Positions 14,567 to 44,700 of a DNA stretch of 64,000 nt are shown here, in pieces. The notes beneath the pieces were generated by a model. The model saw only the letters and a program-made list of their open reading frames with translations. It made no database searches and was not told where the DNA came from. The DNA is from Arcticibacter eurypsychrophilus (GTDB lineage: Bacteria; Bacteroidota; Bacteroidia; Sphingobacteriales; Sphingobacteriaceae): assembly GCF_001730525.1 (NCBI RefSeq), contig NZ_MDFN01000017.1, positions 1 through 64,000 on the forward strand, given 5' to 3'. The position numbers and the translations under genes are program-made. Numbering within the stretch: position 1 is the first letter of the stretch; each line of letters begins with the position of its first letter.

Positions 14567-15613
14567 ATGAGCCAGGACAAGATTATAACTATTTATGATA
14601 TTGCTGAAAAGCTGAAGTTATCCCCTTCGACTATAAGTAGGGGGCTCCAGAACAATACGGCTGTTAATGCAAAAACAAAAAAGAAGATTTTTGATACTGC
14701 AAATGAAATGGGTTACCGGTTTAACACGTTTGCGCGAAACCTCCGTACTCAAAACACAAATACCATCGGCGTAATTGTGCCCCGTTTGAATAGTTATTTT
14801 ATCTCTGCAGTATTGGCTGGCATTGAAAAGGTGATCAATGGAGCGGGTTATAATATGTTGATCAGCCAGTCCCTTGAGTCAAGTGAAAAAGAAGTGGAGT
14901 ATACTAAAACAATGATGCACAACCGGGTGGATGGTTTAATCGTCACTCTTGCAGCTGATACTACTAATTTCGATCACTTTCTGCCTTTCGTGAAACATCA
15001 TATTCCTTTGTTATTTGTAGATAGGGTAATTGACGATGAAAATTATTCTAAAGTTGTGATTGATAACTCAAAGTCAGGTTACGATGCGACTACCCATCTT
15101 ATTGATCAGGGATGCAAGCGGATTGTTCATATAACAGGCAATACCTTGAGGAATGTCTATCGGGATAGAAAATTAGGGTATGAAAAGGCCTTAATTGATC
15201 ATGGGATACCTGTTGATCATGAACTTCTGTTTGAAACTGATTTAACTGAAGTGTCCGCTCTGAAATCTGTTGTTAAAATTCTAAAGATGAATCCTTTGCC
15301 TGATGGCTTATTTGTTTCCAATGACTTTTGTGCCGCCATATGCCTGAAAAAGTTAAAGCAGGCAGGCATAAAAATACCTGAAGATATGGCCATTGTTGGG
15401 TTTAATAATGATACGACATCACGAATTACAGATCCTGCCTTATCCACAATTAATTATCCCGGACAGGAGATGGGAGAGGCTGTAGCAACGAACCTGATTA
15501 ACTGTTTGAGTAATAAAGATATTTCTGCTAAAGCGCAAACCATTGTGCTTAAATCGGAACTGATAGTTAGAGAATCTTCCTTCAGGAGAGAGCATAAACC
15601 GATTAAATTGTAA
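14567..15613 (+). CDS. LacI-family transcriptional regulator of the glucuronoxylan genes
   Basis: At 348 residues this is a full-length regulator. The N-terminal HTH is ITIYDIAEKLKLSPSTISRGLQN (about 7-29), with a hinge region (YRFNTFARNLRTQNT) leading to a periplasmic-binding-protein-like effector domain (IGVIVPRLNSYFISAVLAGIE ... FVSNDFCAA ... IVGFNND). The stop is 4 bp before the GH67 gene, so the two are one transcript. The palindromic operator directly upstream predicts autoregulation and derepression by a uronate or xylo-oligosaccharide ligand. Effector identity is inferred from neighbours. Confidence 0.9.
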   Translation: MSQDKIITIYDIAEKLKLSPSTISRGLQNNTAVNAKTKKKIFDTANEMGYRFNTFARNLRTQNTNTIGVIVPRLNSYFISAVLAGIEKVINGAGYNMLISQSLESSEKEVEYTKTMMHNRVDGLIVTLAADTTNFDHFLPFVKHHIPLLFVDRVIDDENYSKVVIDNSKSGYDATTHLIDQGCKRIVHITGNTLRNVYRDRKLGYEKALIDHGIPVDHELLFETDLTEVSALKSVVKILKMNPLPDGLFVSNDFCAAICLKKLKQAGIKIPEDMAIVGFNNDTTSRITDPALSTINYPGQEMGEAVATNLINCLSNKDISAKAQTIVLKSELIVRESSFRREHKPIKL

Positions 15614-29097: not shown

Positions 29098-29135
29098 AAT
29101 GCCTGTTTGCTTCAAATAGTATAATATTGCTTTTA

Positions 29136-30149
29136 ATGGATTCTATAAATATAAAACAACTTGCTGAAAAACTTAAGGTCTCAACCTCTACTATTTCGAG
29201 GGCATTTAGGGGGCATAACGACATTAGTAAGGAGACCAAAGAGAAAATCCTGTCAATGGCTCTGGAGCTCAATTACCAACCTAATCATTTAGCGAGTAAT
29301 CTCAGAGAAAAAAAAAGTAAGACTATTGCTGTTATAGTTCCTGAAATAGCGAATAACTTCTTTTCAAGGGCAATAAACGGTATCGAAAGAGTTGCCCGTG
29401 ATAACGGCTTTCATGTCCTGATTTATCTCACAAATGACGATTTTGATAAGGAGGTTGCCTTTATAACAGAACTTCATCATGGTAGAGTCGATGGCATCAT
29501 CATGTCTGTGACTGGTGAAGCTCAGGATCATAGTTATATGCATAAGATCAGGAAGAAGAGTATTCCACTTGTCTTTTTTGACCGGGTGTACGATGATGTG
29601 ATCACTTCCAAAGTGGCTACTAATGACTACGATAGTAGCTATTTAGCTACCAGGCATTTGATTGAGCAAGGCTGTAAAAGAATAGTTTACCTCGTTGTGA
29701 ATAAAAATCTATCCATCGGTAAAATGAGGATGCAGGGGTACTTCGACTCTTTGCAGAGCTCCGGTGAAACTATCAGGGAAGAATTGGTTATTGATTGCAG
29801 TAATGATATGGTTAAAAATACATTGATCCTGGAACATGTATTTAAGCATTTAAAGCCAGATGGCGTGTTTGCCTCAGTAGAGCGGCTTGCTTTAGCGAGT
29901 TATTATGTGTGTCACGATATGAATATTGCCATAGGTACTGATATAAAGATCGTGTGTTTCTCAAGCCTTGAGATTGCGCCGTTGCTTAATCCTTCACTGT
30001 CTACCATTACTCAACCTGCTTATGATATGGGTGTTGAGGCGGCGCGAATTTTATTCAGAAGCTTAGAAAATCCTGAAGATAATGAGAACTACGAAAATGT
30101 AGTACTAGACTCGGAGCTTATCATTCGTAAGTCTACCTCAGGTATATAA
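29136..30149 (+). CDS. LacI-family regulator of the maltodextrin locus
   Basis: The start at ATG 29136 gives MDSINIKQLAEKLKVSTSTISRAFRGH, the normal LacI HTH onset; an upstream TTG adds only three residues. The HTH and hinge (about 4-60) are followed by a full effector domain (IAVIVPEIANNFFSRAINGIE, GIIMSVTG, VFFDRVYDD, SSLEIAPLLNPSLSTITQ). It is 337 residues in total. Two CG-centred palindromes lie between it and susC. In Bacteroidota other than Bacteroides itself, maltodextrin loci are commonly run by LacI-type regulators in place of SusR (family knowledge). Ligand probably a maltooligosaccharide, by inference. Confidence 0.9.
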   Translation: MDSINIKQLAEKLKVSTSTISRAFRGHNDISKETKEKILSMALELNYQPNHLASNLREKKSKTIAVIVPEIANNFFSRAINGIERVARDNGFHVLIYLTNDDFDKEVAFITELHHGRVDGIIMSVTGEAQDHSYMHKIRKKSIPLVFFDRVYDDVITSKVATNDYDSSYLATRHLIEQGCKRIVYLVVNKNLSIGKMRMQGYFDSLQSSGETIREELVIDCSNDMVKNTLILEHVFKHLKPDGVFASVERLALASYYVCHDMNIAIGTDIKIVCFSSLEIAPLLNPSLSTITQPAYDMGVEAARILFRSLENPEDNENYENVVLDSELIIRKSTSGI

Positions 30150-30233
30150 TTACTATTTTATTTAAGGTTTGAACATTAATTTGAGCAGTCAAAATTGCTG
30201 AAGCATGAAGAGGATTGTCTAAAGTTATTAACA

Positions 30234-30251
30234 TTCGGGAACGATCCCGAA
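30234..30251. promoter_or_regulatory. Distal LacI-type operator (O2) upstream of susC
   Basis: TTCGGGAACGATCCCGAA is an 18-bp inverted repeat with one mismatched pair next to the central CG. It shares its half-site with the proximal operator at 30423. Its centre is 189 bp upstream of that operator's centre. Confidence 0.7.
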
Positions 30252-30417
30252 AGAAACATATACCTTTTTAGTTCGTGTCATAACTAAAATTTGAAATTTC
30301 ACTAATGTACCTATCAGATAATCAGGACGTTATTTGGAGCCTAAGTTAGTGTATTCGATACACGGAAGTTTAATAAAAAACAAAATAAATAATGTGGATA
30401 ACTTTCATGTTAAATAT

Positions 30418-30448
30418 TTTAGTTCGGGAACGTTCCCGATTATCTTTA
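30418..30448 (+). promoter_or_regulatory. Candidate susC promoter
   Basis: TATCTTTA (30441-30448) is one mismatch from TAnnTTTG and abuts the proximal operator. A TTTAG sits roughly where a -33 element would be (30418-30422). The operator would fill the spacer, a position that permits direct repression. Confidence 0.4.
30423..30440. promoter_or_regulatory. Proximal LacI-type operator (O1) upstream of susC
   Basis: The central 16 bp (TCGGGAACGTTCCCGA, 30424-30439) are a perfect palindrome centred on CG, the LacI-family hallmark. It is 72 bp before the susC start. The adjacent LacI-family gene is the obvious candidate binder. Confidence 0.8.
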
Positions 30449-30511: not shown

Positions 30512-33484
30512 ATGAAAAAACATTACATGCTTCTAATGCTGTTTTTCGTCGTGTTATCCAGTTGGAGCTATGCTCAAACCGGAAGCATCAGTGGACAGGT
30601 TTTAGATGAGACCAATCAGCCACTTCCTGGCGCTTCTATTAGCATCACTTCTTTAAACAGAGCCACATCCACAGATGGGAACGGTCAGTTTAAGTTAAAT
30701 GCAATTCCAACGGGGACTTATTCGATATCAGCTTCATTTATAGGATTCGAAATCCTAAAGCGTAACGTTACTGTTGTAAGCGGAGACACTAAGGTGAATG
30801 TGAAATTAACTCCTTTAGCTCAAAACCTGACAGAGGTGGTCGTAATTGGATACGGTACCCAACAAAAAAAGGATGTCACTGGTTCCATTGCAACTGTTGG
30901 TGTTAAAGATTTCCAAAAAGGTACTATAACATCACCAGATCAATTAATTGTTGGTAAGATTGCTGGGGTTCAGGTAACTACCAATGGTGGTGCTCCCGGT
31001 AGTGGTAGTACGATTCGTATTCGTGGAGGGGCATCCTTAAATGCCAGTAACGATCCGCTTATCGTGGTAGATGGGGTTCCATTATCTGGAAGCACTATAC
31101 CAGGCGTTAGTAATGCCCTGGCGATGATCAACCCGAACGATATTGAAACCTTTACGGTATTGAAAGATGCAAATGCGACTGCTATTTACGGTTCAAGAGC
31201 ATCAAACGGTGTTGTTTTGATTACTACGAAAAAAGGTAAAAGTGGCGCTCCTATAATTAATTTCAGTACTCAGAACTCAGTAGCAACTGTGGCAAAAAAG
31301 GTTGATGTATTGTCAGCAGACCAAATGCGTACCTATGTAAACGAAAATGGAAATGCAGCTCAAGTAGCAATGGTTGGTACAGCTAATACCGATTGGCAGG
31401 ATGAAATTTATCGGAAAGCCTTTACCACTGATAATAATTTTAGCGTTGCAGGTTCTACAAAAGATATGCCTTACCGAGTATCTTTTGGTTACTTGAATCA
31501 AAATGGAACGTTGTTAACGGACAACTTGAAGCGTACTTCCGCTGCGGTAAGTTTGAATCCTAAGTTCTTTGATAATCATTTGAAAGTCGATTTGAACTTA
31601 AAAGGATCTTTATCCAAATCGCAGTTTGCTAATCAGGATGCGATCGTGAATGCCATTCAATTTGATCCAACTCAATCAGTTACTGCAGAAAATCCATTTG
31701 ATAATTACTTTGAGTGGACCACTGGATCAGGAACTACCTTGGTGCCAAATCCAAATGCTCCAAGAAACCCCGTATCCCTTATTAAAAACAAGGACGATGA
31801 TGGTAATACAAAAAGAAGTTTTGGCAATGTGCAATTTGATTATTCGTTCCATTTTCTGCCTGAATTACACGCTAATCTGAACTTGGGTTACGATGTATCA
31901 AGAGGTAAAGGAGCAACTTTCATTTTTGCCAATGCTGCTCAGAGTTATTCAACACAAGGTTCTTATCATAAATATCAGTCAGATATATCAAATCAAGTAG
32001 CTGAGTTTTATTTAAACTATAATAAGGATATAAAAGCAATTAAAAGTAGTATCAGTGCAACTGCAGGCTACGGTTATTATGCTAATAAAACCAAAAACTT
32101 AAATTTCAGTACTTATAGGGCCGACAGTACAACTGTTATTTCTACTCCAACATTCCCATATGATCAGCCAGAAAACAGGTTGTTGTCCTATTACGGTCGT
32201 TTAATTTATACCTATAACGATAAGTATACTGTTTCGGGAACCGTTCGTACGGATGGATCTTCACGTTTTAGTGAAGAAAATAGATGGGGTGTATTTCCTT
32301 CAGCAGCATTTACCTGGAGAATTAATCAGGAAAACTTCTTAAAAGGTACTACTGTTCTATCTGACTTGAAACTTAGATTAAGCTATGGAGTAACCGGACA
32401 ACAGGAAGGAATAGCTAATTATTCTTATCTGCCGAATTATTCTACCAGTGTCAATGAAGCCATGTATCAGATAGGCGATACTTTTTATAGTATGAATGCC
32501 CCAATTGCTTATGATAAAAACATTAAATGGGAAACAACCACAACCATTAACGGGGGCTTAGATTATGGTTTTCTTAATGGTAGAATAAATGGAAGTTTAG
32601 ATATCTACAAGAAAAAAACAAAAGATCTTTTAAGCTCAATCCCTATTCCTATAGGTTCAAATTTTAGTAACTTTCTGTTAACCAATGTGGGTAATATGGA
32701 AGCATCTGGAGTAGAATTTGCTATTAATGGCAAACCGATCTTGAAAAATGATTTCTCATGGGACTTAGGATTTAACGTTACCTATAACAAGACAAAAGTG
32801 ACCAACCTTACTGCCTCTTACGATCCAAGTTACCAAATTTCAACAGGTGGTATAAAAGGTGCTACAGGATATTACATTCAGGCACACACCTTAAATGCTG
32901 CTCCTAATACGTTCTTTGTATATAAGCAAGTTTATGGAGATGATGGTAAACCATTGCAAGGCGTTTATGCTGACTTAAATGGAGATGGAGTAATTAACGA
33001 AAGTGGTGATCGGTATTTTTATAAATCCCCTGCTCCAAAGATAACATTAGGTTTCTCAACCTCTGTTAATTACAAACAATGGGCATTAAGTACAGTATTA
33101 AGAGCCAACCTAGGGAACTATGTATACAATAATGTGGCTTCCAGTTTTACTTCGAGAGCCAGCCTGCTGAACTCCGGAGCCGGAATTCTTAATAACGTCC
33201 CTACAAGTTTTTTTGATACCCAATTTATAAATAATCAATTAACTACAGATTTCTACGTACAGAATGCTTCATTCATGAAAATGGATAATATTGGATTGAG
33301 TTATAATGCAGGTAAAATTCTACATGATCACACAATGGGAAATTTGACTATCTCTGCCAATGTTCAGAATGTGTTCACCATTACCAATTATACTGGTATC
33401 GATCCTGAAGTATATAGCGGTATTGATTATCAATTATACCCAAGACCCAGGACATTTGTATTAGGTTTAAACCTTGGATTTTAA
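30512..33484 (+). CDS. susC: SusC/RagA-type TonB-dependent outer-membrane transporter
   Basis: Imports maltooligosaccharides across the outer membrane with SusD as lid. The 990 residues comprise a signal peptide (to about 21, SYAQ), a carboxypeptidase-regulatory-like N-terminal domain (GSISGQVLDETNQPLPGASI), a TonB-box region (TEVVVIGYGTQQKKD, about 107-121), a plug (KDANATAIYGSRASNGVVLITTKKG) and a beta barrel ending in an aromatic residue (LGLNLGF). It is first in a susC-susD-susE run with 18-bp spacing to susD. The two operators upstream predict LacI-type control. Use for starch is inferred from GH13/GH65 neighbours. Confidence 0.95.
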   Translation: MKKHYMLLMLFFVVLSSWSYAQTGSISGQVLDETNQPLPGASISITSLNRATSTDGNGQFKLNAIPTGTYSISASFIGFEILKRNVTVVSGDTKVNVKLTPLAQNLTEVVVIGYGTQQKKDVTGSIATVGVKDFQKGTITSPDQLIVGKIAGVQVTTNGGAPGSGSTIRIRGGASLNASNDPLIVVDGVPLSGSTIPGVSNALAMINPNDIETFTVLKDANATAIYGSRASNGVVLITTKKGKSGAPIINFSTQNSVATVAKKVDVLSADQMRTYVNENGNAAQVAMVGTANTDWQDEIYRKAFTTDNNFSVAGSTKDMPYRVSFGYLNQNGTLLTDNLKRTSAAVSLNPKFFDNHLKVDLNLKGSLSKSQFANQDAIVNAIQFDPTQSVTAENPFDNYFEWTTGSGTTLVPNPNAPRNPVSLIKNKDDDGNTKRSFGNVQFDYSFHFLPELHANLNLGYDVSRGKGATFIFANAAQSYSTQGSYHKYQSDISNQVAEFYLNYNKDIKAIKSSISATAGYGYYANKTKNLNFSTYRADSTTVISTPTFPYDQPENRLLSYYGRLIYTYNDKYTVSGTVRTDGSSRFSEENRWGVFPSAAFTWRINQENFLKGTTVLSDLKLRLSYGVTGQQEGIANYSYLPNYSTSVNEAMYQIGDTFYSMNAPIAYDKNIKWETTTTINGGLDYGFLNGRINGSLDIYKKKTKDLLSSIPIPIGSNFSNFLLTNVGNMEASGVEFAINGKPILKNDFSWDLGFNVTYNKTKVTNLTASYDPSYQISTGGIKGATGYYIQAHTLNAAPNTFFVYKQVYGDDGKPLQGVYADLNGDGVINESGDRYFYKSPAPKITLGFSTSVNYKQWALSTVLRANLGNYVYNNVASSFTSRASLLNSGAGILNNVPTSFFDTQFINNQLTTDFYVQNASFMKMDNIGLSYNAGKILHDHTMGNLTISANVQNVFTITNYTGIDPEVYSGIDYQLYPRPRTFVLGLNLGF

Positions 33485-33502: not shown

Positions 33503-35083
33503 ATGAAAAAATATAATAAAATAGTGTTAGCATTCTGTGCATTGCTATTCATGGTCACTTCATGTAAAGATGACTTAAACCTCACCCCAACCAATGATAT
33601 AACAGCAGATGTGGCGTATGCTACCCCTGAAGGATATAAAAAAGGGATTGCTAAGGTTTATGGAAGTATAGGGACTTCGGCCAATGGAGGACCATCTGCT
33701 ACTACAGGAGATATCGGTGGTGTAGATGCTGGTACATCAGATTTTATACGCTCTTTCTGGATGTCACAGGAATTGCCAACAGATGAAGCCGCATGCGCAT
33801 GGGGAGACCCTGGTCTTCCAGAGCTAAATTTCATGACCTATACTTCTTCAAACGTCCTTTTATTAGGATTGTATGCCCGTAGTGTTTATCAAATTACTTT
33901 GGTCAATGAATTTTTAAGAGAGAGCACCGATGCCAAACTTTCTGCCAGAGGAATTACAGGAGACGATGCCACAGAAATCAAATACTATATATCTGAGGCC
34001 CGTTTTTTAAGAGCCTATCAGTATTGGGTCTTGATGGATGCATTTGGTAACCCTCCTTTTATTACCGAAGAAAGTACTGTCGGTAAAGAGTCTCCTAAGC
34101 AAATTTCAAGAGCAGATTTATTCACTTATGTTGAATCTGAATTATTAGCTATTGAACCAACGCTGAAAGAAACCAATGAATATGGACGTGTAACACAAGG
34201 AGCAGATTGGGCCCTTTTAGCTCGTGTATATTTAAATGCGCAAGTTTATATCGGTACTCCTAAATTTACTGAAGCTGCTACCTATGCAGAAAAAGTAATT
34301 AATTCAAAACGTTACACGCTGCATACTTCTTATGCCAATCTCTTTAAAGCAGATAATAACCTGAATAACCCAGAAGTAATTCTATCTGTAAATTATGATG
34401 GCACAAGCACTCAGAATTATGGAGGATCAACCTTTTTAATTAATGCAGCAATTAATGGTGATATGGGTACTGCATCTTTTGGTGTTCCTAGTGGTGGCTG
34501 GGGTGGTAACCGAAGTAGAGCAACTCTTCCACAAAAATTTGGTAATTATGCAACTACAGCTGATAAAAGAGCGATGTTCTATGGAACAACTCCAGCGATT
34601 ACTGATATAACGATCTTCACACAAGGTTTAGCCGTAACCAAGTTTACCAACAAAACATCTACAGGAGCAACAGCTCCTTCTGTAAACGGGATCTTTTGTT
34701 CTACAGATTTCCCTCTTTTCCGCTTAGCTGAGATGTATTTAGTCTATGCAGAAGCAGTATTAAGAGGAGGATCTGGAAGTCCAGCTACAGCTATCAATTA
34801 TGTCAACCTTTTGCGCCAACGTGCTTATGGTAATACATCAGGCAATGTCAGTTCGCTTACAGTTGATGATATCTTAAATGAAAGATCAAAAGAACTGTAT
34901 TGGGAATGTTTCAGACGTACGGATTTAGTTCGCTACGGTAAATTTACTGAAGCATCCTACCTATGGCCATATAAAGGCGGAGTGATTAATGGTAAGGGAG
35001 TTGAGTCTTTCCGTAATCTCTATCCTCTTCCTTCAACTGATGTGATTGCCAATACAAACTTAATTCAAAACCCTGGCTACTAG
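33503..35083 (+). CDS. susD: SusD/RagB-type surface glycan-binding lipoprotein
   Basis: Pairs with SusC and captures oligosaccharide at the surface. The signal peptide ends in lipobox VTSC (Cys21). TPR-like helices include AEARFLRAYQYWVLMDAFGNPPF-type sequence (here SEARFLRAY, about 157) and the C-terminal RTDLVRYGKF and LYPLPSTDVIANTNLIQNPGY pattern that almost all SusD homologues share. At 526 residues it is typical. It sits directly between susC and susE, same strand. Confidence 0.95.
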   Translation: MKKYNKIVLAFCALLFMVTSCKDDLNLTPTNDITADVAYATPEGYKKGIAKVYGSIGTSANGGPSATTGDIGGVDAGTSDFIRSFWMSQELPTDEAACAWGDPGLPELNFMTYTSSNVLLLGLYARSVYQITLVNEFLRESTDAKLSARGITGDDATEIKYYISEARFLRAYQYWVLMDAFGNPPFITEESTVGKESPKQISRADLFTYVESELLAIEPTLKETNEYGRVTQGADWALLARVYLNAQVYIGTPKFTEAATYAEKVINSKRYTLHTSYANLFKADNNLNNPEVILSVNYDGTSTQNYGGSTFLINAAINGDMGTASFGVPSGGWGGNRSRATLPQKFGNYATTADKRAMFYGTTPAITDITIFTQGLAVTKFTNKTSTGATAPSVNGIFCSTDFPLFRLAEMYLVYAEAVLRGGSGSPATAINYVNLLRQRAYGNTSGNVSSLTVDDILNERSKELYWECFRRTDLVRYGKFTEASYLWPYKGGVINGKGVESFRNLYPLPSTDVIANTNLIQNPGY

Positions 35084-35102
35084 TTAAAGATATAAGTTCT
35101 TT

Positions 35103-36161
35103 ATGAAAAAGATATTCAAAAATATAGGGATCATTACGCTAACCATGTTAGTGTTTGCATCCTGTAAAAAAGACGAAGAGAAGTTGAGTGTTACTGCTGG
35201 AGAGGCTCCTGCATTAGCGGTATCAACCAACACCTTAGTATTAACCCCGGCAACAGCGAGCGATACTGTTATTACATTTTCATGGAATAAACAGGAAGTA
35301 ACCTGGTCCACTCCGGCTAATGCAACTGATATTACAACTTACACACTGGAGATTGATTCTGCTGGCCAGAACTTTGCTTCTCCTTATGATGTGGATTTTA
35401 CTGGATTTGTTAAAGGAAAATATACTGGTGCTGATTTTAACGCTTTGATGGTCAGTAAGGTTAACTTACCAAGCGATGTAGCGTCTCATATTGAATTGCG
35501 CTTAAAAACTTCTATTGCCCCTAATCAAAGTCCTGTTTATTCCAATGTGGTCTCCTTAACAGTTACCCCTTATGTGGTCATTCCAGAATATGTATCCTTG
35601 TATGTAGCAGGTAGTCATCAGGGATGGGCTCCTTCAACTGCTCCTGCAATTGGATCAGTAAAGGATGACGGCACTTATGAAGGATTTGTTAATTTTCCTG
35701 ATGCCAGCACAGATTATAAATTAACAAGTGCGAGAGACTGGAATAATACCAATTATGGTGATGGCGGAACAGGGCTCCTGAGTACTACGGGTGGTAATAT
35801 TACTCAAGCCGGTGCAGGATATTATTATATCAAAGCGGATATTAATAAAATGACAGTGTCTGCTGAAAAAACAGCATGGGCTGTAATAGGTGCCGCAACT
35901 TCAGGTGGTTGGGATACAGAAACTGCTCTTACTTACGATATAAACGCGAAAGTGTGGAAAGCAACGGTTAATCTTACAGCCGGAGAATTTAAATTCAGAG
36001 CGAATAACGCTTGGGCATTGAATATGGGAGCAAGTACTATCGATGGAGTGTTGAAAATTGGTAGTAATGATAATCTTTCAGTTTCTGATGCTGGATCTTA
36101 TACGATTACACTGGATCTATCACATCCTGCGTATTATATGTATAAATTAAAGAAAAATTAA
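35103..36161 (+). CDS. susE: SusE-like outer-membrane starch-binding lipoprotein
   Basis: Signal peptide with lipobox FASC (Cys21). A SusE N-terminal domain (about 25-155, LSVTAGEAPALAVSTNTLVLTP, FTWNKQEVTW-like pattern) is followed by two tandem starch-binding-type domains: about 165-250 (SLYVAGSHQGWAPSTAP) and about 258-350 (WAVIGAATSGGWDTETAL, FKFRANNAWALNMG). This is the SusE/SusF layout, here with two C-terminal binding domains. It is the last gene before a terminator and 19 bp after susD. Exposed on the cell surface to bind alpha-glucan, by family knowledge. Confidence 0.9.
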   Translation: MKKIFKNIGIITLTMLVFASCKKDEEKLSVTAGEAPALAVSTNTLVLTPATASDTVITFSWNKQEVTWSTPANATDITTYTLEIDSAGQNFASPYDVDFTGFVKGKYTGADFNALMVSKVNLPSDVASHIELRLKTSIAPNQSPVYSNVVSLTVTPYVVIPEYVSLYVAGSHQGWAPSTAPAIGSVKDDGTYEGFVNFPDASTDYKLTSARDWNNTNYGDGGTGLLSTTGGNITQAGAGYYYIKADINKMTVSAEKTAWAVIGAATSGGWDTETALTYDINAKVWKATVNLTAGEFKFRANNAWALNMGASTIDGVLKIGSNDNLSVSDAGSYTITLDLSHPAYYMYKLKKN

Positions 36162-36167
36162 TGCTAA

Positions 36168-36200
36168 AACCTGTCTGCTTATTAGCAGGCAGGTTTTTTT
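36168..36200 (+). terminator. Rho-independent terminator after susE
   Basis: AACCTGTCTGC (36168-36178) pairs with GCAGGCAGGTT (36185-36195) with one wobble pair and a TTATTA loop, followed by a T-run to 36200. It separates the susCDE transcript from the downstream enzyme genes. Confidence 0.88.
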
Positions 36201-36397
36201 ATAAACCACCACTATCAGTAAATGCCTGTCTGTCTAATCTGTATTCCCCAAGAGTTATCATTCTAAGAAATTACTTAGTTGAATGCTAGGAATCATTTAT
36301 GCTGTTTTTTATTAATAAGCATTAAAACCTATTAACTAATGGGCAACTAACAGGGACTTACCTTTCAACTCAAACGCATTTTGCTTTCATGCGGAGC

Positions 36398-36441
36398 GAA
36401 CAAGGTGCGAACAAGGTGCGAAGGAGGTGCGTCTGAGGTGG
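36398..36441. repeat. Four degenerate 11-bp tandem units
   Basis: Units at 36398, 36409, 36420 and 36431 read GAACAAGGTGC, GAACAAGGTGC, GAAGGAGGTGC and GTCTGAGGTGG. The first two are identical. The block is purine-rich and much more GC-rich than its flanks. It lies about 100 bp before the neopullulanase gene. It could be a regulatory array or the edge of a dispersed repeat. The remainder of the interval 36201-36539 shows nothing else. Confidence 0.7.
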
Positions 36442-36539
36442 GTACAAATTAAGATTATCTATTGAGGAAATAGTATACATAATGATAGTACTACACATCA
36501 CCAATAGTTGATATTAATGTAATTTAATTACTATAAATA

Positions 36540-38393
36540 ATGAAAGTTAAAATCAGTTCTATTCTGTTTTTTCTGTTGATCAGTGTATCAGTTTTTGCAC
36601 AGATACCAGCACTTGAACGCGTTGAGCCTTCCTTTTGGTGGGTAGGGATGAATAATCCGAAACTCCAGTTAGTGGTTCATGGCAATCAGATTGCTTCCCG
36701 GGAAGTGAGTTTGAATTATGAAGGAGTTAAGCTGGTTAAAATAAATCGGGTAGAAAACCCCAATTACTTATTTCTTGACCTTGAAATTAACCCTGGTACT
36801 ACACCAGGAAAGTTTGAAATAGCATTTACAAAGAAAAATGCAAAGAAACTGAGTTACAGTTATCAGTTAAAGGCCAGGGATAAATCCCCAAACCGCATAC
36901 TAGGCGTAACCAATAAAGACTTTGTTTATCTCATTATGCCTGATCGTTTTGCAAACGGAGATAAAAAGAATGACATCGTTAAGGGGATGGAGGAAACAAC
37001 TCTAAACCGTGATTCAATGTATTACAGGCACGGCGGTGACATTCAGGGAATCATTAATCACCTGGATTATCTTCAGGAGCTCGGTGTAACCACCTTATGG
37101 CTCAACCCGGTTTTAGAAAACAATCAGCCTAAAACCTCCTATCACGGCTATGCCGTTACCGATAATTATAAAATAGATCCCCGCTTTGGTACCAATGCAC
37201 TTTATAAAAAGCTCATTGATGACTGCCATTTAAAGGGCATGAAGGTGATAAAAGATTTGGTGCATAATCATTTAGGAAGCGAACACTGGATCATCAAAGA
37301 TATGCCATCAAAAGATTGGGTACATCAATGGCCAACCTATACGAAGTCTTCTTTTAAAGACCAGGTGCTTTTTGACCCATATGCAGCTGCAAATGATAAA
37401 AAACAAATGACTGACGGATGGTTTGATCACCATATGCCTGATGTCAATCAGAATAACGAATTTGTAAAGAATTACTTCACACAAAGTCATATCTGGTGGA
37501 TTGAATATGCCGGAATAGATGGTTTCAGACTGGATACCTATGCCTACAACGATCCGGTTTATATGGCAGAATGGGGAAAGGCGATCAAGGCAGAATATCC
37601 ACGCTTTACCTTTTTTGCAGAAACATGGGTACGTGGTGTACCTAATCAGGCCTTCTTTACTCAGGGGAATACTATTAATAGAGGCTTCGACACAGAGTTA
37701 CCCGGCGTAACTGATTTTCAGGCTTTATGGGGAATAAATGAAGCCTTGAACGGAAAACAGGGATGGGATGACGGTGTTAATCGTCTCTATACCACCATTG
37801 CCAGTGATTTTGTTTATCAGGATGCTACCCGCAATGTGGTATTTCTGGACAACCATGACCTGAGTCGCTTTTATTCAGTGGTAGGAGAAGATTTTACTAA
37901 ATATAAATCAGGAATTGCCTGGTTATTGACTACACGTGGAATCCCCCAGTTATATTACGGAACAGAGTTGTTGATGAAGAATTTTTCTAATCCCGATGGA
38001 TTAGTACGTGATGATTTCAAAGGAGGATGGGCAGAGGACAAAGTGAATAAATTCACAGCTTCTGGCCGAACAGAAAAAGAGAATGAAGCCTTCAACTTTG
38101 TGAAGACGCTGGCTAATTACCGCAAAAACAATGAGGTTTTGCAAACGGGAAAACTGATGCAATATGTACCCGAAAACGGTATTTACGTATACTTCAGATA
38201 CAATGCGGATAAAACGGTCATGATCATCATGAACAGCAATGACAAAGAGGAAATACTCAATACCTCTCGTTTTGAAGAACGCACTGCTGGTTTTACCCAA
38301 GCTTTAAATATCACTTCTGCAACAAAAATTAATTCATTAAAAACATTAACGATCCCTGCCAAAACTACACTGGTATTGGAATTGCAAAAATAA
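36540..38393 (+). CDS. GH13 neopullulanase/cyclomaltodextrinase (SusA-like), periplasmic
   Basis: Cleaves maltodextrins or pullulan to short sugars. The signal peptide ends near VFAQ (21). An N-terminal cyclomaltodextrinase-type domain (about 25-120) precedes the GH13 barrel with VYLIMPDRFANGD, LWLNPVLE, DLVHNH, FRLDTY (nucleophile Asp332), FAETW (acid Glu361) and LDNHD (Asp440), followed by a C-terminal beta domain. The product (617 residues) fits the family. One base separates its stop from pgmB, so translation is likely coupled. It lies outside the susCDE transcript, beyond a terminator, hence probably has its own promoter. Confidence 0.93.
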   Translation: MKVKISSILFFLLISVSVFAQIPALERVEPSFWWVGMNNPKLQLVVHGNQIASREVSLNYEGVKLVKINRVENPNYLFLDLEINPGTTPGKFEIAFTKKNAKKLSYSYQLKARDKSPNRILGVTNKDFVYLIMPDRFANGDKKNDIVKGMEETTLNRDSMYYRHGGDIQGIINHLDYLQELGVTTLWLNPVLENNQPKTSYHGYAVTDNYKIDPRFGTNALYKKLIDDCHLKGMKVIKDLVHNHLGSEHWIIKDMPSKDWVHQWPTYTKSSFKDQVLFDPYAAANDKKQMTDGWFDHHMPDVNQNNEFVKNYFTQSHIWWIEYAGIDGFRLDTYAYNDPVYMAEWGKAIKAEYPRFTFFAETWVRGVPNQAFFTQGNTINRGFDTELPGVTDFQALWGINEALNGKQGWDDGVNRLYTTIASDFVYQDATRNVVFLDNHDLSRFYSVVGEDFTKYKSGIAWLLTTRGIPQLYYGTELLMKNFSNPDGLVRDDFKGGWAEDKVNKFTASGRTEKENEAFNFVKTLANYRKNNEVLQTGKLMQYVPENGIYVYFRYNADKTVMIIMNSNDKEEILNTSRFEERTAGFTQALNITSATKINSLKTLTIPAKTTLVLELQK

Positions 38394-38394
38394 T

Positions 38395-39045
38395 ATGGCA
38401 CAAATAACAGCTTGTATATTCGATCTTGACGGTGTAATTGTTGATACAGCGGTATATCATTACCGTGCCTGGAAACGCCTGGCTAACGAGCTTGGTTTTG
38501 ACTTTACAGAAGAAGATAATGAAAAATTAAAAGGAATAAGCCGGGTAAAATCACTGGAGCTTATTCTTGGATGGGGGGGTATAGAAAAGACTGAAACAGA
38601 GCGCGAAGAACTGGCTTCCCGTAAAAATACATGGTATGTGGAGATGATTCAATCCATGCGTCCTGATGAAATTCTTCCAGGTGCTAAAGAATTCCTGCAA
38701 GAGATGAAGGCCGCAGGTCTAAAAACAGCATTAGGCTCAGCCAGTAAAAATTCAGGACTGATTCTGGAAAGAACAGGTTTGCTCCCTCTTTTTGACGTAT
38801 TGGTAGATGGTAACCATGTCTCTGCATCAAAGCCTAATCCTCAGGTTTTCTTAAAAGGAGCTGAAGCATTAGGAATCGAACCTGCGAATTGTGTCGTGTT
38901 TGAAGACGCTGTAGCAGGTGTGGAGGCCGCAATAGCAGCGGGAATGAAGGTAGTAGGCATTGGCTCTGCAGAGGTTTTAAATCGCGCGGATCTGGTGGTT
39001 AAGGGACTCTTTGAAATACATGTCCCACAACTCAATAACTTATAG
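38395..39045 (+). CDS. pgmB: Beta-phosphoglucomutase
   Basis: Cytosolic HAD-superfamily enzyme converting beta-glucose-1-phosphate to glucose-6-phosphate. The 216 residues start CIFDLDGVIVDTA with nucleophile Asp10 and acid/base Asp12. A helical cap includes the WKRLANELG motif. The core continues with LGSASKN, SKPNPQVF and FEDAVAGVEAAIAAGM, all beta-PGM specific. It stands between a neopullulanase and a GH65 phosphorylase, whose product is exactly its substrate. This makes the assignment firm. Confidence 0.95.
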   Translation: MAQITACIFDLDGVIVDTAVYHYRAWKRLANELGFDFTEEDNEKLKGISRVKSLELILGWGGIEKTETEREELASRKNTWYVEMIQSMRPDEILPGAKEFLQEMKAAGLKTALGSASKNSGLILERTGLLPLFDVLVDGNHVSASKPNPQVFLKGAEALGIEPANCVVFEDAVAGVEAAIAAGMKVVGIGSAEVLNRADLVVKGLFEIHVPQLNNL

Positions 39046-39080
39046 ATTGATATAACATATAGCATAGATTTTACAGGAAA

Positions 39081-41417
39081 ATGAAGAATTATATCGTTGA
39101 AGATGAATGGAATATTATTGAATCAGGCTTCGATCCTCATTTAAATAAAATATCTGAAAGTATCTTTAGTATTGGCAATGGCCTTATGGGGCAGCGTGCT
39201 AATTTTGAAGAGTCCTATTCAGGTGATACCTTACAGGGTAATTATGTTGCCGGAATCTATTATCCGGATAAAACTCGTGTAGGTTGGTGGAAAAATGGTT
39301 ATCCTGAGTATTTTGCGAAGGTTTTAAATGCAGCAAACTGGATAGGGATTGGTATCAAAATTGGCGAAACAATACTCGATCTGAACAAATGCGAGATCAT
39401 TGATTTTAAGCGTGTTTTGAATATGAAGGAGGGTTATCTTGAACGTTCTTTCGTTATTTCTTTAGAGGGAAACAGGCAGGTAAGTGTGGTAGCAAAAAGG
39501 TTTTGTAGTATTGTTGATGACGAAACAGGTGCAATAAGCTATGCAATTACTCTTCTAAATTTTGATGATGAACTGACTATTACTCCTTTCATTGATGGTG
39601 ATGTGCAAAATCAGGATGCCAACTACGATGAGAAATTCTGGGATGAGCTATATCATGAAGTGCATGATCAATCTGCTTTTCTGGGACTGTGCACTAAAAA
39701 GACCAATTTTGAGGTTTGCACCGGAATGCAGTTTGACATTCAAACTGAAAAAGGGCAAGCTATTCCTGTATCTCGAAAAATAACCAAGGAGAAGTATGTA
39801 GCTAATGAGGTGAAAATAAGGGTACAAAAAGAGGAGAAGCTGACTATATATAAGTATGCCGCTAATCTGTCGTCAGAGAATTACCCTAAAGAATTACTTT
39901 TAGCTACCTGCCATACTATGCTTCAGGAGGTTGCTGATAAGGGTTTTGATAAAATGCTGGCTGAACAGGCAGCAGCCTGGGCGAAAAAATGGGAAGAAAG
40001 TGATATTGTGATTGAAGGGGATGTTGCCGCACAGCAAGCTATTCGCTTTAATATTTTTCAGTTAAACCAAACTTATACAGGGGAGGATGCCCGTCTGAAT
40101 ATTGGGCCTAAGGGATTTACTGGTGAAAAATATGGTGGCTCTACCTATTGGGATACCGAAGCTTATTGTGTGCCCTTTTATTTGGCAACTGCTTCACCTG
40201 AAATTACAAAGAATCTACTTATATATCGGTATAAACATTTAGCTAAGGCAATTGAAAATGCTGAAAAGCTTGGTTTTAACAATGGAGCCGCACTTTATCC
40301 AATGGTGACCATGAACGGTGAGGAATGCCACAATGAGTGGGAAATTACCTTTGAGGAAATCCATAGGAACGGAGCAATTGCCTTTGCGATCTATAATTAT
40401 ATCCGCTATACGGGCGATAAAGATTACTTGATTACATACGGCCTTGAAGTACTGGTTGCCATATCCCGCTTCTGGAGTCAACGAGTAAATTGGAGTGCCG
40501 ATAAAAAGCAATATGTTATGCTTGGTGTTACGGGACCGAATGAATACGAAAATAACGTGAACAATAATTGGTATACCAGCACTATAGCTACCTGGTGTAT
40601 GAAATATACGTTAGAATCATTGGATTATGTTCGTATTCAATCTCCGGAAAGCTTTATGGAATTGACGGAGCGAATCCGGTTCGATGAGTTCAAAGAAACA
40701 ACGGAATGGAAGTCCATAATTCAAAATATGTACTATCCAAAGGATGATAACCTGGGGATCTTTCTGCAACAGGACGGCTATCTAGATAAAGAGCAGGTGT
40801 TGGTTAAAGACCTGAATCTTTCGGATCGGCCTATTAATCAAAAGTGGAGTTGGGACAGGATTCTGCGTTCCGTATTTATTAAGCAGGCAGATGTGCTTCA
40901 GGGAATCTACTTATTGGAAGATCAGTTTGATGAAGACACGATCAGGCGCAACTTTGATTTTTACGAACCACGTACGGTTCATGAAAGTTCGCTATCTCCT
41001 TGTGTGCATGCTATTTTAGCGGCTAAACTGGGCGATGAGCAACGCGCTTACGATTTTTATCTCCAAACGTCGCGTCTCGATTTAGATGATTATAATAATG
41101 ATACCGATGATGGTCTTCATATTACCTCTATGGCAGGAACCTGGATGAGCGTTGTGGAAGGCTTTGCTGGTATGCGAATTAAAGATGATCAGCTTTATTT
41201 TCATCCCTTTTTACCTGTAAGATGGCAATCTTTTTCTTTCAATATTATTTTCAGGGGATCAGTGTTAAATGTCAAAATTGGTCATGACGGGGTTCATTTA
41301 GAAAATAAATCAGTTACACCTCTTACGGTTTGTATTTTTGACAAAGCCTTTGAGGTAAATCAATATGCCAATTTATATGTGGCTAATTCTGATTCAAAAA
41401 GTGAAATCCAGATTTAA
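39081..41417 (+). CDS. GH65 maltose phosphorylase
   Basis: Splits maltose with phosphate into glucose and beta-glucose-1-phosphate in the cytosol. At 778 residues without signal peptide it has the GH65 N-terminal beta-sandwich (MGQRANFEESYSGD), the (alpha/alpha)6 barrel with YGGSTYWDTEAY and the catalytic acid Glu488 in TGPNEYENNVNNNWYT. That position equals the known Glu487 of the Lactobacillus maltose phosphorylase. HESSLSPCVHA and a C-terminal beta domain follow. GH65 also contains trehalose and kojibiose phosphorylases; the maltodextrin context favours maltose. Confidence 0.9.
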   Translation: MKNYIVEDEWNIIESGFDPHLNKISESIFSIGNGLMGQRANFEESYSGDTLQGNYVAGIYYPDKTRVGWWKNGYPEYFAKVLNAANWIGIGIKIGETILDLNKCEIIDFKRVLNMKEGYLERSFVISLEGNRQVSVVAKRFCSIVDDETGAISYAITLLNFDDELTITPFIDGDVQNQDANYDEKFWDELYHEVHDQSAFLGLCTKKTNFEVCTGMQFDIQTEKGQAIPVSRKITKEKYVANEVKIRVQKEEKLTIYKYAANLSSENYPKELLLATCHTMLQEVADKGFDKMLAEQAAAWAKKWEESDIVIEGDVAAQQAIRFNIFQLNQTYTGEDARLNIGPKGFTGEKYGGSTYWDTEAYCVPFYLATASPEITKNLLIYRYKHLAKAIENAEKLGFNNGAALYPMVTMNGEECHNEWEITFEEIHRNGAIAFAIYNYIRYTGDKDYLITYGLEVLVAISRFWSQRVNWSADKKQYVMLGVTGPNEYENNVNNNWYTSTIATWCMKYTLESLDYVRIQSPESFMELTERIRFDEFKETTEWKSIIQNMYYPKDDNLGIFLQQDGYLDKEQVLVKDLNLSDRPINQKWSWDRILRSVFIKQADVLQGIYLLEDQFDEDTIRRNFDFYEPRTVHESSLSPCVHAILAAKLGDEQRAYDFYLQTSRLDLDDYNNDTDDGLHITSMAGTWMSVVEGFAGMRIKDDQLYFHPFLPVRWQSFSFNIIFRGSVLNVKIGHDGVHLENKSVTPLTVCIFDKAFEVNQYANLYVANSDSKSEIQI

Positions 41418-41458
41418 AACCAAGACGAATTATGTTTATTAAAGTTTATTGCTAAAAA

Positions 41459-43258
41459 ATGAAAACAGTTCTCTTTTTTGCCTTGTTCAGTTTGTGTATA
41501 CTGAATGCTTGCAGTAATCGATCAAAACCGAGCAAACTTTCTATGGATAATAAGGAAAACATAGATAATCATAAACTGATTATCTATCAAATGATGGTAC
41601 GGCATTTCGGTAATACCAATACCACTAATAAGTTCTATGGATCTATAGAAGAAAATGGAGCTGGCAAGTTTAATGATATCAATGCGAAGGCTCTTGATGA
41701 ACTAAAAAAATTAGGTGTAACGCATCTTTGGTTCACCGGTGTGATTGAACATGCCACCATGACCGATTATTCGGCCTATGGAATCAAGATGGATGATCCG
41801 GATATTGTTAAAGGAAGAGCAGGATCGCCTTATGCAATTAAGGATTATTATGATGTAGATCCCGATCTTGCAGTGAATGTAAAGAAGAGGATGGCAGAAT
41901 ACAAAGCCCTGATTACACGAACCCATAAACATGGCTTAAAAGTGATTATGGATTTCGTTCCTAATCATGTAGCCCGTACTTATAACTCAGACGCCAAACC
42001 TGCCGGCGTAAAGGATTTTGGCGAAGGAGATGACAGGACAAAAGCTTTTTCTACGCTCAATGATTTCTATTATATCCCAGGTGAATCATTTGTTGTGCCT
42101 GAAGGAACTGATGCTGGAGGTAAAAACTTTAAAAGCCCGCTTAAAGATTTGCTTTTCGATGAAAATCCTGCCAAAGCAACAGGGAACAATGTCTTTGCAG
42201 CAAATCCGGGTTTAGGCGACTGGTCTGAAACGATTAAACTCAACTATGGGATCGATTATCAGAATAAAGAAAAGAAATATCTGGACCCTATTCCTCCAGT
42301 TTGGGTAAAAATGAAGGACATCCTGGTATTCTGGGCCCAAAAAGATGTGGATGGTTTCCGATGCGATATGTCTGAAATGGTTCCTGTAGAGTTTTGGAAC
42401 TGGGTGATTCCTCAAATCAAAAAACTCCATCCTAACATCATCTTTATTGCTGAAGTTTATAATCCCAAGCTATATAAAGAATATATCACCGTTGGTAAAT
42501 TTGATTATTTGTATGATAAAGTAGGTTTGTATGATGGGTTGCGGAAATTGATAAAAAACGAATCAGAGGCTGATGTTAAAGACATCAGTTTCGTGGCCAA
42601 TGAAGAAAGTAAAGACTTTTCTGATCATATGCTTCGCTTTTTGGAGAATCATGATGAAGAACGGATTGCATCCGATGGTTTTGCCAAAGATCCGGCATAT
42701 GCGCTCCCTGCTATGATTGTATCGGCAACACTTTCCGGTGGACCCGTGATGATTTATTCCGGACAGGAAGTAGGGGAGCCCGGTCGTGGAAATGAAGGCT
42801 TTGGGGGAGAAGACAACCGTACCAGTATCTTTGATTATTGGGGTGTCCCAGAGCATCAGAAATGGATGAATGGTGGTGCTTTTGATGGAGCACTGTTATC
42901 CGAAAAGCAAAAGCAACTGCGAAACTTTTATGCAAACCTGTTTCATGTTTGCACTCAGAGTGAAGCTATTAGCCAGGGTCAATTTTATGAATTAAAAGAT
43001 CAACCCGGATTTAATAACAGGATGTATGCCTATATCCGTTATACCAAGAACGAACGCGTATTAATTATTGCCAATTTTGACCGTGAAAAGAGTCTGGAAA
43101 CCACTATTCAGCTTCCGGATTTAATAAGTAAAGGTCTGGCCAATAACCAGTTTAAACTAACCGATATGTTAAGTGGCGAAAGCAGCACTATTCCTTCCGT
43201 AAAGCAAGGGATTCATATCAAACTAGCCCCTGTACAAGCAAAAATGTTCCGATTTTAA
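41459..43258 (+). CDS. GH13 alpha-amylase-type lipoprotein
   Basis: The signal peptide has lipobox LNAC (Cys18), so it is anchored in a membrane, probably at the surface or periplasmic face. The GH13 catalytic set is complete: FRCDMSE with nucleophile Asp303, FIAEVYN with Glu332, and ENHDEER with Asp399; DFVPNH marks region I. The C-terminal beta domain ends in KMFRF. Region GGPVMIYSGQEVGEPGRG is normal for amylases. A second partial copy of its 3' end sits 40 bp downstream (43299-43325). Expected to cut alpha-1,4 glucans to oligosaccharides. Confidence 0.9.
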   Translation: MKTVLFFALFSLCILNACSNRSKPSKLSMDNKENIDNHKLIIYQMMVRHFGNTNTTNKFYGSIEENGAGKFNDINAKALDELKKLGVTHLWFTGVIEHATMTDYSAYGIKMDDPDIVKGRAGSPYAIKDYYDVDPDLAVNVKKRMAEYKALITRTHKHGLKVIMDFVPNHVARTYNSDAKPAGVKDFGEGDDRTKAFSTLNDFYYIPGESFVVPEGTDAGGKNFKSPLKDLLFDENPAKATGNNVFAANPGLGDWSETIKLNYGIDYQNKEKKYLDPIPPVWVKMKDILVFWAQKDVDGFRCDMSEMVPVEFWNWVIPQIKKLHPNIIFIAEVYNPKLYKEYITVGKFDYLYDKVGLYDGLRKLIKNESEADVKDISFVANEESKDFSDHMLRFLENHDEERIASDGFAKDPAYALPAMIVSATLSGGPVMIYSGQEVGEPGRGNEGFGGEDNRTSIFDYWGVPEHQKWMNGGAFDGALLSEKQKQLRNFYANLFHVCTQSEAISQGQFYELKDQPGFNNRMYAYIRYTKNERVLIIANFDREKSLETTIQLPDLISKGLANNQFKLTDMLSGESSTIPSVKQGIHIKLAPVQAKMFRF

Positions 43259-43278
43259 ACAAGTAATAGACAACAGGC

Positions 43279-43325
43279 ATGAAAACAGTTGACAACTCTA
43301 CAAGCGAAAATGTTCCGATTTTAAA
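43279..43325 (+). repeat. Partial duplicate of the preceding GH13 gene (start plus end, middle missing)
   Basis: ATGAAAACAGTT at 43279-43290 equals the first 12 bases of the gene at 41459. TACAAGCGAAAATGTTCCGATTTTAAA-like sequence at 43299-43325 repeats the gene's last 27 bases (43233-43259) with one change. Eight unrelated bases join them. It reads as the scar of a second gene copy whose body was deleted. The 3' match is strong, the 5' match short. Confidence 0.6.
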
Positions 43326-43344
43326 ACCATAAAAAACCTAAAAT

Positions 43345-44700
43345 ATGAACCCAGTAATAGATAAACTGAAACTTTTGGCTAAGCCGAAGCTTTCTTTTCT
43401 GCAAATATTCAATATGAGCTTCGGCTTCTTCGGAATCCAATTTGGTTTTGCACTGCAGAATGGGAATGCTTCCAGAATACTGCAAACCTTTGGTGCAGAT
43501 GTAGAACATCTTTCACTCTTTTGGCTGGCAGCACCTATTACTGGAATGATTATTCAGCCGATCATTGGCCATTACAGCGATCGGACATGGAACAGGTTGG
43601 GTAGGCGCAGACCGTATTTTCTTACAGGAGCAGTACTTGCGGCCCTGGCATTAATCTTTATGCCAAATTCGGCCATGTTAGCTTATTTATTGCCACCTAT
43701 ACTAGTAGGAGCAGGGATGTTGATGATCATGGATGCTTCTTTTAATGTGGCAATGGAGCCCTTCAGGGCTTTAGTTGCGGATAACCTTCCCAACGATCAG
43801 CATAGTATTGGTTTCTCCGTACAAACCTTCCTAATTGGCGCAGGTGCTGTTATTGGTTCATGGCTCCCTTATGTGTTTTCGGAATATCTGGGCGTTTCAA
43901 AGATTGCAGCAGTTGGTGTAATTCCTAATAATGTCATTTATTCATTCTATGTTGGAGCAGCGGTCCTGTTATTTTCATTAGTGTGGACGGTGGTCACTAC
44001 AAAAGAATATTCTCCCGAGGAACGTGCACGGTTTCAGGAAAGTGAGCCCGAAGTAGGGGAGCAAAAGGGAATCATGAGTATCTTCACTGATTTCTCCAAT
44101 ATGCCTGCCACGATGAAACAGTTAGGATTGGTTCAATTCTTCTCCTGGTTTGCTTTATTTTCCATGTGGGTGTTTTCCACTCCCGCCATTGCACAACATG
44201 TTTATAATGTCCTTCCCGGAGATACTACTTCTTCCCGCTATGCCGATGCAGCGAATTGGGTAGGCATCTTGTTTGGTATTTACAATGGAGTGTCAGCCAT
44301 ATATGCATTGTGTCTTCCCTCAATAGCACGAATGACAAGCCGGAAAATAGCACATGCCTTTTCATTATGTGCCGGGGGAATAGGCCTGCTCTCGATCTAT
44401 TTTATTTCTGATCCCCAAATTCTTATCTTCTCCATGATTGGTATTGGTCTGGCCTGGGGTAGTATCCTTGCTATGCCTTATGCTATTTTATCAAGTTCTA
44501 TTCCTGCACGGAAAATGGGAGTTTACATGGGCATTTTTAACTTTTTCATCACCTTCCCGCAAATTGTAAATGGTTTCTTTGGAGGAATGATCGTTAAACA
44601 GCTTTTCGGCGGACAAGCAATTTACGCGCTCGTTATGGCAGGTGTTTTAATGCTCGCTGCAGCTGTCTCTATACTAAATGTTCGGGATAGCCAGGGTTAA
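43345..44700 (+). CDS. Sugar transporter of the MFS/GPH type, probably maltose permease
   Basis: The 451 residues contain about 12 membrane segments. The N-terminal half has FGIQFGFALQNGNASRILQTFGA and HYSDRTWNRLGRRRPYF, the latter the cytoplasmic loop signature of GPH-cation symporters (sucrose/maltose type). In the second half the ARKMGVYMGIFNFFITFPQI motif is likewise typical of Bacteroidota maltose transporters found in such loci. It follows the amylase gene and precedes another GH13 gene. It should carry maltose into the cytosol for phosphorolysis. Substrate from context. Confidence 0.87.
   Translation: MNPVIDKLKLLAKPKLSFLQIFNMSFGFFGIQFGFALQNGNASRILQTFGADVEHLSLFWLAAPITGMIIQPIIGHYSDRTWNRLGRRRPYFLTGAVLAALALIFMPNSAMLAYLLPPILVGAGMLMIMDASFNVAMEPFRALVADNLPNDQHSIGFSVQTFLIGAGAVIGSWLPYVFSEYLGVSKIAAVGVIPNNVIYSFYVGAAVLLFSLVWTVVTTKEYSPEERARFQESEPEVGEQKGIMSIFTDFSNMPATMKQLGLVQFFSWFALFSMWVFSTPAIAQHVYNVLPGDTTSSRYADAANWVGILFGIYNGVSAIYALCLPSIARMTSRKIAHAFSLCAGGIGLLSIYFISDPQILIFSMIGIGLAWGSILAMPYAILSSSIPARKMGVYMGIFNFFITFPQIVNGFFGGMIVKQLFGGQAIYALVMAGVLMLAAAVSILNVRDSQG

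Follow-up and report, generated by a model that had tools for sequence, protein, structure and literature searches.

Most of what is known about long-range regulation by DNA looping comes from a few Escherichia coli operons, and discussion of how polysaccharide loci are regulated in Bacteroidetes has centred mostly on SusR, hybrid two-component systems and ECF sigma factors. The locus described here, in front of a susC gene of Arcticibacter eurypsychrophilus, resembles E. coli lac O1-O3 in combining a main operator at the promoter with an auxiliary operator upstream, and recalls lac O2 in the operator-like site that some relatives carry within their first gene; unlike LacI, its regulator has no tetramerisation tail, and the spacing of its operator pair is not conserved. 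GalR is a tail-less LacI-family dimer that loops between the gal operators OE and OI, 113 bp apart, in a helical-phase-dependent and HU-assisted manner (PMC4693257). The likeness to gal lies in a tail-less LacI-family dimer, two palindromic operators and, as we propose, long-range action that depends on distance and phase; here, however, one of the operators falls within the promoter spacer, with its distal partner about 200 bp upstream, and many relatives do without the second.

Ravcheev et al. 2014 (PMC4052901) surveyed LacI-family targets: about 20% had more than one site, the spacings peaking at 13, 22 and 32 bp, and some 7% of the sites lay more than 200 bp upstream. Among these RegPrecise tandem sites, the 13-bp overlaps and the 32-bp class are matched in our relatives by 12-bp doublets and 32-33-bp pairs, respectively, whereas 44-bp pairs, 189-bp pairs and a base-exact promoter distance are absent from the peaks quoted there; of the findings below, it is the 44-bp pairs and the base-exact distance that are less familiar. 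The Bacteroides sus locus is likewise a susCDE-type starch/maltodextrin locus under dedicated control, but SusR is an activator bound to the membrane, and its sites are direct repeats (PMC3878776), whereas the protein here is a cytoplasmic LacI-family regulator: neither a membrane-spanning sensor nor direct repeats were found, the architecture being that of the LacI family and the sites palindromic. Our literature search found no study of this regulator or this promoter.

A LacI-family regulator and its predicted operators in front of susC

The window is the whole 64-kb stretch analysed (contig NZ_MDFN01000017.1, positions 1 to 64,000). Genus labels are those of our genome search: g1 is the genus of the window, and we take g15 to be Mucilaginibacter (the one of these two labels based on a named record, L007/L119) and g14 to be Pedobacter. 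The features are:

29136..30149, + strand: LacI-family regulator gene (Pfam LacI and Peripla_BP_1/3), with orthologues in about 130 family loci
30221..30233, + strand: F motif, AAAGTTATTAACA, abutting the distal operator and conserved in g1, g15, g18 and two g19 loci
30234-30251, no strand: distal operator, TTCGGGAACGATCCCGAA, the upstream copy
30347..30365, no strand: P palindrome, TAGTGTATTCGATACACGG, the sole exact match in the genome
30393..30405, - strand: R motif (inverted F), centred 42 bp upstream of the -7 box (41-43 bp in g1, g15 and g18)
30418-30422, + strand: -33-like element, TTTAG (TTTTG in several relatives)
30423-30440, no strand: proximal operator, TTCGGGAACGTTCCCGAT, the copy inside the promoter spacer
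30441-30448, + strand: predicted -7 element, TATCTTTA, fitting the Bacteroidetes consensus
30512..33484, + strand: susC-like TonB-dependent receptor gene, the first gene of the regulated operon
33503..44700, + strand: rest of the maltodextrin locus (susD, susE, cyclomaltodextrinase, HAD hydrolase, GH65, GH13, MFS transporter)

The two palindromic sites are centred at 30242.5 and 30431.5 and are thus 189 bp apart, as the earlier note had stated. At three or fewer mismatches they are the sole matches within the 64 kb (0.01 expected), and in the whole 4.69-Mb genome only these two are good matches, the third having three mismatches, which is the control level. That note had described the proximal copy (its O1) as a perfect palindrome in the promoter spacer and the distal copy (its O2) as nearly perfect. 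The proximal operator does occupy exactly the 18-bp gap between TTTAG and TATCTTTA, elements that agree with the Bacteroidetes -33/-7 promoter consensus TTTG/TANNTTTG (PMC6847099), and its 16-bp core (30424-30439) is a perfect palindrome, but the outermost pair is non-complementary; the description of the distal operator holds, one of its nine pairs being mismatched.

Both sites lie directly downstream of the regulator gene, whose product has an N-terminal LacI helix-turn-helix and a periplasmic-binding-protein-like sensor (PF00356, PF00532 and PF13377, all above cut-offs) and is 96% identical to its closest relative, from Arcticibacter svalbardensis. The open reading frame was listed from a TTG at 29127; the orthologues start at the ATG at 29136 (MDSINIK), and the listed start is probably three codons too early. 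The sites have even symmetry and a central CG, are close to the regulator gene and are conserved in relatives, in keeping with the LacI-type assignment made before. From these features we infer binding by the neighbouring LacI-family regulator, and we assign both sites as its operators, located around the susC promoter. The gene set from susC to the MFS transporter gene is a maltodextrin locus, in which the HAD hydrolase is probably a beta-phosphoglucomutase. A second LacI-family regulator gene occurs in the window at 14567-15613, beside a GH43 and UxuA locus.

The proposal that a tetrameric LacI-type repressor acts here was not borne out. Alignment of the regulator spans residues 7-338 of 340 with CcpA and residues 8 to 336 with PurR, its match to LacI ends at residue 306, and no leucine-heptad tail was visible by eye in the C-termini of twelve orthologues; judged by these alignments, the protein is without the LacI tetramerisation tail and terminates like CcpA and PurR. 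Since tail-less GalR dimers can loop, the missing tail counts against the tetramer as the agent, not against looping.

Operator spacing and promoter distance in relatives

The earlier note had taken the 189 bp as 18 x 10.5 bp, a phasing favourable to looping, and proposed conservation of the spacing as a check. The arithmetic is right (18.0 turns at 10.5 bp, and 17.06 turns at the 11.08-bp repeat from PMC1762422, where fitted in vivo helical repeats of lac loops are 11.1-11.6 bp), but 3 of every 10.5 spacings come within 1 bp of a 10.5 multiple by chance, and 'exactly 18 turns', taken alone, is weak evidence. Across six g1 genomes the distal-to-proximal spacings were 189, 189, 189, 191/179 (an overlapping doublet), 182 and 184 bp; three species share one spacing and the other three depart from it, and 10.5-bp phasing is not maintained throughout the genus. 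The spacings of 182 and 184 bp are about half a turn off, and the distal sites there are weak (three and four mismatches). Not every species needs the distal site: in L018 and L019 it is weak and off-register, in L017 a doublet takes its place, and neither g18 species has it. The proximal operator was found in six of six g1 and two of two g18 species. In L014-L016, on the other hand, a strong distal site has kept its exact distance in diverged surroundings. The 171 bp between the operators are only 32% identical (ungapped) in L014 and L016, and the region 45-185 bp upstream of the -7 box is 28% identical (shuffled sequence, 32%); since both nonetheless keep exactly 189 bp, selection on length is suggested.

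We collected about 130 orthologous family loci, some 99 of which have susC next door, and measured the distance from operator centre to predicted -7 box (L112 and L115 were excluded because of a mis-assigned start; L068 has two candidate -7 boxes). In each of the eight g1 and g18 loci the promoter operator stands 9.5 bp from the -7 box, and in three of the six g1 species the distal operator is at 198.5 bp; because the proximal distance never varies, 189 is simply 198.5 minus 9.5. Loci of g15 that have no promoter operator also have their distal operator at 198.5 bp in four cases, and at 200.5 bp in a fifth, so operator-operator looping cannot explain the distance there. The inner site of g19 loci is at 198.5-200.5 bp, with L068 at 199.5 bp.

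Other lineages hold other positions as tightly. In 43 Pedobacter-type loci the two operators lie 222.5 and 266.5 bp from the -7 box, and the inner one averages 222.6 bp (sd 0.7); the outer operator of 31 doublet loci (g14, g21, g2) is at 233.6 bp (sd 0.8), and the doublet arrangement in Pedobacter-type loci is 221.5/233.5 bp; the control interval, from regulator stop codon to operator, had sd 7.4 in pair loci and 83 in doublet loci. Pair-type loci are mostly of one genus with intervals averaging 46% identity, and are thus not fully independent; nine Pedobacter pair species whose intervals are mutually less than 45% identical gave 221.5-225.5 bp, five of them exactly 222.5, and seven doublet species selected likewise gave 232.5-237.5 bp, four of them 233.5. 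One exception is the g15 locus L042, whose sites, at 214.5 and 257.5 bp, do not fall on these registers. The distance is thus held to about 1 bp across DNA whose identity has often dropped to near-random levels.

The positions of the lineages differ by roughly multiples of 11 bp, and helical phase across lineages is suggestive only: a Rayleigh test gave P = 0.22 with weak sites included and was significant only for hand-picked strong classes, and the two registers of the doublet blur the argument. Which arrangement is older is not settled, because the regulator tree groups g1 with the g15 single-site clade at weak support (85/46) and splits g18. What seems constrained and lineage-fixed, to judge from these comparisons, is the operator-to-promoter distance. 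The distal distance thus appears to be under selection, as a distance to the promoter and not to the other operator, and the 189 bp most likely reflect an operator-to-promoter geometry that does not depend on the presence of the promoter operator.

Other conserved elements and variants

F and R form an inverted 13-mer pair, AAAGTTWTYMACA, with a DnaA-box-like core, and a 15-mer, AAAGTTWTYMACATT, has exactly two genomic occurrences, both at this locus. A genome-wide search for a tandem TTATCCACA cluster found none, and the exact 13-mer was at background (6 vs. 5 in the control); on these grounds we set aside DnaA boxes and treat F/R provisionally as a locus-specific motif. The palindrome P (TAGTGTA-N5-TACAC) is present in nearly all susC-linked loci at a lineage-fixed 85, 163 or 184-185 bp from the -7 box. 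It is a probable site of a second regulator; it does not match the Bacteroides Crp palindrome (wwwTATGTTnTAnAACATAwww, PMC3878776). Proteins at F/R and P are candidate loop partners.

Operator-like sites, TCCGGGAACGTTWCCGTW, occur within susC of L132, L138, L158, L160, L119, L021, L022 and L023, relatives that have no promoter operator. These cannot be treated as one inherited site, being at about +210 in g19 and g21 and about +270 in g15, in different codons. Overlapping operators 12 bp apart, making a palindrome of up to 30 bp, lie upstream of susC in L021, L022, L026, L027, L038 and others, and resemble the 13-bp overlapping class known for GntR. A g15 clade (L055, L057, L059-L062, L065, L152, L153, L155-L157, L159, L161, L163, L165) has close homologues of the regulator with no susC adjacent, and no operator copy was found downstream in these loci; its target has probably changed there.

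Action of the two operators

In the model that we favour, with confidence that is about evenly balanced, the proximal operator blocks the promoter and the distal site acts through a length-constrained loop. Both sites would be bound by the adjacent, locus-specific LacI-family dimer. At 30423-30440 the dimer would cover the -33/-7 spacer and so block RNA polymerase directly, a step that we propose because of the position of the proximal site and general knowledge of such operators. The upstream site, 198.5 bp from the -7 box, would be a separate element acting on the promoter complex, as the evolutionary constraint on its distance suggests; the distal dimer may contact the promoter-bound dimer, RNA polymerase or a factor at the F/R motifs. 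A maltodextrin-derived effector would release the repressor. Binding, repression, effector release, loop formation and the contact partner are all inferred steps. Long-range action is plausible, and appears better supported by the relatives than by the arithmetic of 18 turns.

A stricter GalR- or LacI-like loop, in which dimers at the two operators join, with or without an HU-type protein, and the 189 bp are selected for that contact, would account for the retention of 189 bp in three species over diverged DNA, for a spacing near integral phase at both 10.5 and 11.08 bp, and for the degraded distal sites of both off-phase species. We nonetheless consider it unlikely, given the equal distal distance in g15 loci that lack a promoter operator, the variable spacing within the genus and a regulator with no tetramer tail. 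Another reading is that the distal operator has merely been left over from an older arrangement, and that the promoter operator does all the work in the genus. This is suggested by g18, which carries the promoter operator only, and by the degenerate distal sites of L017-L019; the strong, exactly placed distal sites of L014-L016 in diverged surroundings argue otherwise, and we think this quite unlikely too.

The distal operator might instead be an activator or anti-activator site working with P- or F/R-binding proteins, independently of promoter repression. Dual-acting LacI-family members are known (Cra and PckR, PMC4052901) and would serve as precedents, and most relatives have upstream operators only, some 200-270 bp from the -7 box and beside P or F, but the operator in the promoter spacer of g1 implies repression, and we hold this reading to be improbable. 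Least credible, and hardly to be expected, is that the palindromes serve to end transcription of the regulator gene: a scan flagged the proximal copy as terminator-like, but that copy sits between promoter elements, no T tract stands behind the distal copy, and the Pedobacter copies are followed by A runs rather than T runs. We rejected terminators because the T tract is missing at the right place after the stem.

Extended to the family, the preferred model of a promoter block with a length-constrained distal contact becomes a more tentative proposal, which we offer as possible but doubtful: in Sphingobacteriaceae a LacI-family dimer some 200-270 bp upstream would control susC by contacting the promoter complex in a base-pair-exact and helically phased manner, needing neither a promoter operator nor a tetramer tail, and Arcticibacter would have added an operator that blocks the promoter. 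Evolution seems to have run the spacing experiment, with dozens of species holding the operator-promoter distance to about 1 bp while much of the intervening DNA was rewritten. If so, long-range, phase-dependent control becomes testable in Bacteroidetes.
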